Below are positions 35,787 to 46,894 of a stretch of 46,894 bases of DNA, in pieces. Numbering within the stretch: the first letter of the stretch is position 1; the number at the start of each line of letters is the position of its first letter. The notes beneath the pieces were generated by a model. That model saw only the letters and a list, made by a program, of their open reading frames with translations. It had not been told where the DNA came from and ran no database searches. The stretch spans positions 1-46,894 of the forward strand of contig JAHJEG010000041.1 in NCBI GenBank assembly GCA_018825665.1, written 5' to 3'. The DNA comes from a bacterium. Its GTDB lineage: Bacteria > Campylobacterota > Campylobacteria > Campylobacterales > Sulfurimonadaceae. The translations under genes were made by a program, and so were the position numbers.

Positions 35787-35807
35787 TTGTACCGTTTTTG
35801 TACCGTT
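35787..35807. repeat. right copy of the 21-bp inner repeat
   Basis: Identical to 32329-32349, again two TTGTACCGTT units one base apart, same orientation. It lies about 105 bases inside attR, in DNA without another clear function. Confidence 0.6.
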
Positions 35808-35912
35808 GTATAATAAGAAAATAGCAAAATAATGAGCTTAAGTGTTTATAGATTGGCTATTACAACTACCAAAAACAAGCCTTTTTACTTGCTATCTCTT
35901 ATTTTCCACATA

Positions 35913-44760: not shown

Positions 44761-45384
44761 CTAACTTTCTTTTTCTACCCGCTTTATTAATTCTTGAAAT
44801 TTTTTGGAAGTGTACGCAATCTTGATAAGTTTATTATTCTCATCAATTTTGTATGTACCGGTAGAATTAACGAAAATTTGAGGTTTTAAGTCCTCTCTGG
44901 TTCTCAGGTTGAGGACTCTAAAACTAAGGTTATCCAATATCAGCGGTGACTCATCCTGATTTTCAAAATAACTAAGCACCATATGGTACCTTCCGCTAAA
45001 TTTTTCATATACAGTTGTAATAAACAGCTTCTCTTGTTCGAATCCAAGTTTTAAGAGAGTGAAATATTTTATAATTGCATAATCTTCACAATCTCCATAT
45101 CCCAAAGTCAAAAATTCTTTTGGAGTTTCCCAATAATCTTCCTGATTCTGATTCAATTTGTCAACCTGAGGCAAGAGCTGGTTCAGATAAAAATTCACTT
45201 TTAAAAGCTGCTTGTCTTTTGTGTCATTTTTATAAGAATTTATCGTATCAAAATAGTCAACTATTCTGTTTTTTGCTATTTTTCCGGAATGCAGGGAAAT
45301 TTTATCTATTTCCCCTTCTGTAAAATGAGGATAGGATGAAGCGTACAATGCAAGGGAAAAAGTAAATATAAATATCGCTTTTAT
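44761..45384 (-). CDS. LapG-type periplasmic cysteine protease, apparent AUA start
   Basis: A bacterial transglutaminase-like cysteine protease of the LapG family. With a start at ATA 45384 it has 207 residues and a good signal peptide, MKAIFIFTFSLALYA. The catalytic triad is C99 (GYGDCEDYA), H134 (GRYHMVLSY) and D151 (ILDNL). The spacings of 35 and 17 match those of characterised LapG. A TTG at 45348 is the only conventional start nearby, and it would cut off the signal peptide. ATA 45384 has AGAGGA eight bases upstream and an in-frame TAA lies further upstream. LapG cleaves the N-terminal retention module of LapA-type adhesins, and such an adhesin begins 0.9 kb away. No LapD-like c-di-GMP receptor is in the window. 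Confidence 0.85.
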   Translation of the reverse strand: MKAIFIFTFSLALYASSYPHFTEGEIDKISLHSGKIAKNRIVDYFDTINSYKNDTKDKQLLKVNFYLNQLLPQVDKLNQNQEDYWETPKEFLTLGYGDCEDYAIIKYFTLLKLGFEQEKLFITTVYEKFSGRYHMVLSYFENQDESPLILDNLSFRVLNLRTREDLKPQIFVNSTGTYKIDENNKLIKIAYTSKKFQELIKRVEKES

Positions 45385-45556: not shown

Positions 45557-45646
45557 GGACAAGTGGGTGAGCGGCTGAAACCACATCCCTGCTAAGGATG
45601 CGTACGGGTAACTGTACCGAGGGTTCGAACCCCTCCTTGTCCACCA
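45557..45646 (+). tRNA. tRNA-Ser (anticodon GCU)
   Basis: The acceptor stem GGACAAG/CTTGTCC closes a class II tRNA of 90 bases including an encoded CCA (45644-45646). The anticodon stem CATCC/GGATG has the loop CTGCTAA, giving GCU, which reads AGC and AGU serine codons. A long variable arm (GTACGGGTAACTGTACC) and the T-loop GTTCGAAC are clear. It stands alone, upstream of the cold-shock gene. Confidence 0.97.
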
Positions 45647-45845: not shown

Positions 45846-46064
45846 ATGGCGCAATTGCTAAATGGAACTGTTAAATGGTTCAACGAAGAAAAAGGTTATG
45901 GATTTATCCAGCAAAATGATGGCGGTGGTGATTTATTTGTACATTTTCGTCAAGTAAACAGCACTGGACCTGGTCGTGTTTCTTTATCAGAAGGTCAAAA
46001 AGTAACATACGAAATTGGTGAGGGACAAAAAGGTCCTCAAGCTGAGAACGTAACTGCACAGTAA
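45846..46064 (+). CDS. cold-shock protein (CspA family)
   Basis: A 72-residue CspA-family protein. The RNA-binding motifs are GYGFIQQ (RNP1) near residue 18 and DLFVHF (RNP2) near 31; [15 protein letters not shown] is the typical N terminus. ATG 45846 is chosen over an upstream in-frame ATG at 45819 because AGAGG lies seven bases before it and the protein then has the standard length. It binds single-stranded RNA or DNA as a chaperone. Its long leader (about 200 bases after the tRNA) holds one stem-loop. Confidence 0.93.
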
Positions 46065-46116
46065 GTAAAACTTACATCCTATTTTAATACTTAACGATTT
46101 CTATTTGAAATTGTAT

Positions 46117-46163
46117 AAGTTTAAAATAGATATTTATAAAATTCCCCCCCCCCCTTTAAACTT
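46117..46163 (+). repeat. C11 homopolymer within an inverted repeat upstream of the adhesin
   Basis: Eleven consecutive C residues at 46144-46154 lie between AAGTTTAAA (46117-46125) and TTTAAACTT (46155-46163), a perfect 9-bp inverted repeat. The tract is 97 bases before the adhesin ATG and about 31 bases before a TACAAT -10-like box (46186-46191). Long G/C tracts of this kind are slippage-prone contingency sites in Campylobacterota. The rest of the 187-base gap between the cold-shock and adhesin genes is AT-rich with no other gene. Confidence 0.6.
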
Positions 46164-46250
46164 CTATCTACAAAATGTCCTCAGGTACAATATACAATAT
46201 ATATTAATTATTCTATTATTTGTCAATACTAAAATTTTCAGGAGTCTGTT

Positions 46251-46894
46251 ATGGCATCATATATAGGAAAAATTGATAGTTTAGATGGCACATTTTACGC
46301 AAAAAGCGCTGACGGTTCGCTTCGTGAATTATCTATTGGAGATAAGCTTTACGAAGGTGAAATTATTGTTGGTGATGATGGAAATAGTGCTATTAATAGC
46401 ATTATAGTTTCCATGAATGATGGAAATGACATTATAGTTCTTGGAACTCAAACACAGGCTCTTGATGCATCTCTTACCCAAGAAGAATTTGCAGAAAACG
46501 AAACAGTAACTGAAACTAGTTCAATACAGTCAATGTTGGAAAAAAACGGTGATATAGATAGTGATAATATCGAAGATTTACAAACTGCTGCCGGTGAAGA
46601 AACAGGCGGAGCAGAATCAACAGATGGTATTCATGCCAATTTTGCCGAATCTAATGATGCAAGTGCTGACGTAAATGCAAATGTAGGCGGTAGTGCATTT
46701 ACAAGTGAAGAAAATATTGATACACATAAGGTAGATGAAAGTGAAGAATCGCGTCGTGTTGAAGGAAGTGTAGATGAGATATTAGAATCTGTGACAGATA
46801 CAGAGATCGCTTCCATGGTAGGCAATGTAGCCGATCTTACAGACGCAGCCAATGAAGCAGCCACAGCCGCCGATGCAGCCGCAGCCGCAGCCAA
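46251..46894 (+). CDS. LapA-type giant adhesin, N-terminal retention module (partial)
   Basis: The first 214 codons of a gene that runs off the window. GGAG precedes ATG 46251 by six bases. There is no signal peptide, as expected for type I secretion. Residues 1-75 (YIGKIDSLDGTFYAKSADGS, then LRELSIGDKLYEGEII and MNDGNDIIVLG) form the retention module that plugs the outer-membrane exporter in LapA-like adhesins. TAAG at residues 112-115 matches the LapG cleavage motif at about the same place as in Pseudomonas LapA. The chain then becomes acidic, and from about residue 193 alanine-rich (AANEAATAADAAAAAA). A LapG-type protease gene lies 0.9 kb upstream on the other strand. Repeats and RTX secretion signal would be outside the window. 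Confidence 0.82.
   Translation, partial: MASYIGKIDSLDGTFYAKSADGSLRELSIGDKLYEGEIIVGDDGNSAINSIIVSMNDGNDIIVLGTQTQALDASLTQEEFAENETVTETSSIQSMLEKNGDIDSDNIEDLQTAAGEETGGAESTDGIHANFAESNDASADVNANVGGSAFTSEENIDTHKVDESEESRRVEGSVDEILESVTDTEIASMVGNVADLTDAANEAATAADAAAAAA

Follow-up and report, generated by a model that had tools for sequence, protein, structure and literature searches.

A homopolymeric tract upstream of an adhesin gene

Does the run of eleven cytosines that precedes an adhesin gene in a free-living Sulfurimonas act as a switch for that gene? An earlier note on this DNA had suggested that it could: slippage of the C11 tract, framed by an inverted repeat, was thought to alter spacing upstream of the -35 region and so to make the adhesin promoter phase variable. 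The window, by which we mean the whole stretch of 46,894 nucleotides that was analyzed, belongs to a nearly complete genome (2.34 Mb in 59 contigs, 98.6%) whose genus was taken as Sulfurimonas (Campylobacterota). In it, the tract is preceded by genes for a LapG-like cysteine protease (Peptidase_C93; 44761-45348, minus strand), which would be expected to process the adhesin, a tRNA-Ser(GCT) (45557-45646, plus strand), whose linkage to the adhesin gene recurs in several relatives, and the cold-shock protein csp (45846-46064, plus strand), and it is followed by the adhesin gene itself.

The plus-strand gene at 46251-46892 encodes the N-terminal part of a LapA-type retention-module adhesin and is truncated by the contig end, 214 codons in. 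Its identification as an adhesin holds: the product matches NF033682 with an E value of 2.3e-7 (31 bits, below the curated cut-off of 50) and aligns from its first residue with nine congeneric proteins at 52-64% identity, which together indicate an N-terminal retention module. The contig breaks off within an alanine-rich adhesin repeat (46850-46894), and a search of the genome found no further copy of the adhesin N-terminus. The locus resembles the LapA/LapG/LapD system in its retention-module N-terminus, in the lapG-like gene ~0.9 kb upstream and in the presence of a LapD-type sensor domain elsewhere in the genome (LapD_MoxY_N above cut-off at C24:81516), which provides both the LapG and the LapD partner of a LapA-type adhesin; it differs in that the family score of the adhesin lies under the curated cut-off. 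In one Sulfurimonas genome, a tandem pair of LapG-like genes (loci L036 and L142) was seen 5' of tRNA-Ser and adhesin. A literature search returned nothing on LapA adhesins in Sulfurimonas, and only loosely related work on phase variation in this genus.

Position and rarity of the C11 tract

Inspection base by base confirmed the C11 homopolymer at 46144-46154 on the plus strand, with AT-rich DNA on either side and with the flanking 9-bp inverted repeat exactly where it had been described (46117-46163). The tract lies 97-107 nt 5' of the ATG of the adhesin gene, at about -82 to -72 from the predicted start site. It is the only C11 or G11 in the 2.34-Mb genome, and the second-longest C/G run within the window measures 6 bases. 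Under a first-order Markov model of the window, C/G runs of at least 11 bases were expected 0.0018 times in the window and 0.09 times in the genome. For runs of at least 10 bases, the same window-based model yielded 0.44 for the genome versus three observed, corresponding to a Poisson chance of ~1% by our own arithmetic. From these expectations and counts, C11 is unusual for the window but only mildly to moderately unusual for the genome. The other two runs, both of 10 bases, are located at C24:102843-102852 and at C25:62-71, the latter in apparently non-coding DNA near a contig end. The former (L003 1501-1510; C10/G10) separates two flagellar hook-type genes and lies 3 bases past the stop codon of one of them.

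Runs of at least 8 C or G occur at four distinct places in the genome, compared with ~10 expected. This lack of an excess indicates that the genome carries no Campylobacter-style set of contingency tracts, and we rejected the idea that C11 is one of many such tracts. The length of C11 itself is slip-prone, as had been claimed: G/C tracts of at least 8 are known to be mutable in C. jejuni (PMC6321876), and eleven bases fall within this range for phase variation driven by simple sequence repeats. C11 shares phylum, tract type and a length above their cut-off of at least 7 G/C with the poly-G/C loci of Campylobacter (PMC6321876); it differs in that the best-known of these loci act by frameshift within genes, whereas C11 is intergenic and stands in a genome with only four runs of at least 8.

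A conserved operator and promoter downstream of the tract

We compared the upstream regions of 30 retention-module adhesins found in the genus, including the one in the window. All 30 regions contain a palindrome, TTGTAC-N4-GTACAATA, 75-81 bp 5' of the start codon, several positions of which are invariant (30/30). In the window this putative operator reads ATGTCCTCAGGTACAATA (46175-46192, plus strand), with two mismatches to the consensus. It is followed on the same strand by a degenerate -35-like hexamer, TATACA (46191-46196), a -10 hexamer, TATTAT (46214-46219), at the commonest offset, and a Shine-Dalgarno sequence, AGGAG, assigned by eye (46240-46244). Most of the 30 regions have a -10 element (TATNAT or similar) at or near a fixed offset; in 17 this offset is +39, counted from the palindrome start. 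An adenine at +51, present in 28, is the likely start site, predicted at ~46226 in the window. The palindrome centre thus falls at about -43.5 from the predicted start, a position suited to an activator that touches RNA polymerase.

The exact 17-base core of the palindrome was found at 56 distinct places in 135 genomes of the genus, 36 of which have a retention-module start on the same strand no more than 160 bp downstream; a reversed control pattern gave zero matches in the same 135 genomes. The palindrome also recurs at similar distances in retention-module genes of several other Campylobacterales genera and families, where it scores 12-14 out of 14, as compared with 7-11 by chance; it is missing from some other retention-module genes of the order. 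On these sequence comparisons, the case for an operator common to LapA-type adhesin genes of several Campylobacterales genera is stronger than that for a switch.

In Pseudomonas, lapA is under the control of FleQ, and the operator of the window adhesin is unlike the one used there. Its layout (TGTAC-N4-GTACA, that is, 5-bp half-sites around a 4-bp centre at about -43.5) would suit an operator of the Crp/Fnr type, for which a centre near -41.5 would be expected, and the genome encodes Crp/Fnr-family helix-turn-helix domains (three HTH_Crp_2 matches above cut-off). The same 5-4-5 layout is seen in the Crp/Fnr-type site of C. jejuni NssR, TTAAC-N4-GTTAA (PMC1274295), which the palindrome resembles. 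In two genomes of the comparison the palindrome is located between divergent genes (L111, G009:C1:2004910; L118, G028:C63:1919) that by eye are DEAD-box-helicase-like and membrane-sensor-like; these sites point to a possible second target or a possible clue to the regulator. Within the window, a further operator copy with one mismatch, TTGTACCGTTGTATAATA, occurs at 35796-35815, ~290 bp 5' of an OprD-like porin gene, which stands ahead of actP and acetate-CoA ligase genes.

The end of C11 is separated by 20 bp from the palindrome and by ~36 bp from the -35-like hexamer, with the tract on the upstream side. The earlier description of the tract as just upstream of the likely adhesin promoter is thus correct as to direction, and generous as to "just". 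Because C11 lies outside the conserved promoter, slippage would alter none of the spacings between operator, -35 and -10, and the claim that length changes act through the spacing upstream of the -35 region is not supported. The tract neither lies within promoter or regulator elements nor respaces them. Upstream of the palindrome, the columns of the 30-region alignment show an AT bias only and no further conservation.

Absence of the tract from relatives

None of the other 29 congeneric regions has a C/G run of at least 6 upstream of the adhesin gene; the window stands alone in this respect. The tract is also missing from 15 named-genome loci and from the order-level loci with a placeable start (L163, in which the start could not be placed, was left out). 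C11 was accordingly rejected as a conserved promoter element. The comparison set comprised one genome per species.

In the nearest syntenic relative, G108, which has the same succession of tRNA-Ser, csp and adhesin, CCC occupies the place of C11. Between G108 and the window, the operator, the -10 hexamer and the Shine-Dalgarno sequence align nearly letter for letter, and the spacer is poorly conserved. Short C-runs are found 23-26 bp 5' of the operator in G108 (C3) and in two other relatives (C4 in G015 and G004); we do not claim that they are conserved, because most relatives are without any. The two-sequence alignment of the window with G108 suggests that C11 probably expanded from such a short C run.

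Elsewhere in the genus, runs of at least 10 are sporadic (41 of 135 genomes) and, among the loci sampled, mostly intergenic, a scattered distribution that fits tolerance in non-coding DNA where they are harmless. At one locus (L106; G096:C93:2901-2916), a C16 run lies inside one reading frame, with the end of the next 11 bp away; it is a stronger candidate for phase variation by frameshift than C11 of the window.

The tract as a probable, largely neutral spacer

Judged from sequence, C11 is most likely a slippage-prone, largely neutral spacer rather than a proven on/off switch. This reading is based on the position of the tract outside the shared promoter and on its absence from every relative examined. 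With reasonable though by no means full confidence, we regard C11 as a species-specific, slippage-prone homopolymer in an unconserved spacer, with the adhesin promoter wholly downstream and with an effect on expression that is nil or small. The tract would have arisen by slippage in a freely varying spacer that runs from the hairpin at the putative csp transcript end to the conserved adhesin promoter, and its length would probably drift by slipped-strand mispairing. The adhesin itself would be driven by the activator-type palindromic operator at about -43, the degenerate -35 and the TATTAT -10. A change in tract length would then shift the csp-side DNA alone relative to the operator, and adhesin expression would respond little or not at all, because nothing is conserved beyond the far side of C11.

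Surface adhesins are a classic kind of contingency gene. That the genome has few long tracts and that the longest of them lies 5' of a surface adhesin counts against a neutral spacer. In addition, C11 lies just 5' of where the sites for the RNA polymerase alpha C-terminal domain would be, beside an activator at about -43, which makes an effect on expression possible; the tract may thus act weakly on expression via the upstream DNA.

Comparison with known promoter tracts

Related tracts are known upstream of other adhesin genes. In H. pylori sabA, a T-tract adjacent to the -35 tunes the contact of the polymerase with upstream DNA in the manner of a rheostat (PMC4081817). When C13 took the place of T13, a reporter in E. 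coli became more active, with polymerase binding like that of T13 (PMC4081817). C11 resembles the sabA tract in that both are slippage-prone mononucleotide repeats upstream of an adhesin -35, and both occur in the same phylum. It differs in base (C instead of T), in its distance to the -35-like hexamer, ~36 bp from the end of C11 where a sabA-type tract is next to the -35, and in that length variation and its effect have been demonstrated for sabA, whereas C11 is known from sequence alone. In the fim2, fim3 and fimX genes of Bordetella pertussis, a C-stretch overlaps with the functional promoter, where it determines how far the activator region lies from the -10 (PMC1891110). The likeness here consists of poly-C 5' of an adhesin gene and an activator-dependent promoter; the tract of the window, however, lies outside the promoter, with the operator downstream of C11, whereas a fim-type C-stretch separates activator site and -10.

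Modeled on sabA, C11 could function as a transcriptional rheostat: with changes in its length, the AT-rich DNA further upstream would be rotated against the operator and core promoter, which would tune the contact with RNA polymerase or the activator, so that adhesin levels vary between cells. Consistent with such a role are the AT-rich DNA flanking C11 on both sides and the fact that adhesins are typical contingency genes. A length within the mutable range for Campylobacterota (PMC6321876) and the sabA precedent, a same-phylum adhesin gene whose tract precedes the -35 (PMC4081817), also speak for it. Yet the sabA tract adjoins the -35, while C11 is ~36 bp further upstream with the operator between; the T13 and C13 results indicate that the base of which a tract consists makes a difference, and poly-C is not an established substitute for poly-T (PMC4081817); no relative examined has a tract, and no conserved element is found upstream of C11. 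We therefore consider a rheostat unlikely. More doubtful still is the extended version, in which a free-living Sulfurimonas would superimpose a rheostat on an adhesin that is controlled by the operator and gated by LapG/LapD, with cell-to-cell variation in attachment outside any host as the result. For the proposal of a phase-variable promoter as a whole, the tract length and the adhesin stand, and the promoter spacing, the absence of a tract from relatives and the near-chance inverted repeat do not support it; a promoter switch is a possible but not a favored reading, with roughly the same modest likelihood as the rheostat.

It is very improbable that the C11 length reflects a sequencing or assembly error, or that the tract is otherwise not as drawn. 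Homopolymers are error-prone, the C11 length is known from the assembly alone, and the adhesin gene is broken at a contig end; against this stand clean flanks, a nearly complete genome (98.6%) and the rarity of other long runs, and an error would be likelier to shift the length by 1-2 bases than to create a tract.

The inverted repeat and the csp hairpin

The arms of the inverted repeat, AAGTTTAAA (46117-46125) and TTTAAACTT (46155-46163), form a perfect 9-bp match that frames C11, and such a frame could be a functional hairpin, a cruciform or an operator. A perfect repeat of at least 9 bp spanning the tract arose in 98 of 3000 dinucleotide shuffles of the flanks (~3%), that is, near chance, and a hairpin with C11 in its loop is weak (-2.5 kcal/mol, z -1.05). 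Far stronger is an AT-rich hairpin 3' of csp (46079-46129, plus strand), the probable 3' end of the csp transcript, for which folding of 46065-46143 gave -18.4 kcal/mol (z -5.4). When the csp 3' region is included in the fold, the left arm AAGTTTAAA, which lies within the 3' arm of this csp hairpin, pairs into it instead. A strong hairpin is also present in the matching place after csp in G108 (z -5.2), and no sequences resembling the repeat arms were found in the aligned upstream columns of relatives. The role proposed for the repeat as a hairpin loop or operator was therefore rejected as near chance and outcompeted by the csp hairpin, and we give a functional repeat in any of these forms almost no credence.

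On the bottom strand, G11 could just accommodate a two-tetrad quadruplex whose loops are one base each, which would count for a G-quadruplex or i-motif as an insulator between the csp and adhesin transcription units; such an insulator is highly implausible, as two-tetrad structures are weak, the run is not conserved in relatives and the csp hairpin already supplies a transcript end.

Implications

If it were true that C11 tunes the adhesin, contingency control by promoter tracts would extend from host-associated Campylobacterota to a free-living sulfur oxidizer. The more solid result is the comparison, which points to a conserved operator-plus-promoter module that the LapA-type adhesins of Sulfurimonas share with those of other Campylobacterales genera. 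With this module in hand, the regulator of the LapA-type adhesin operator can now be sought.
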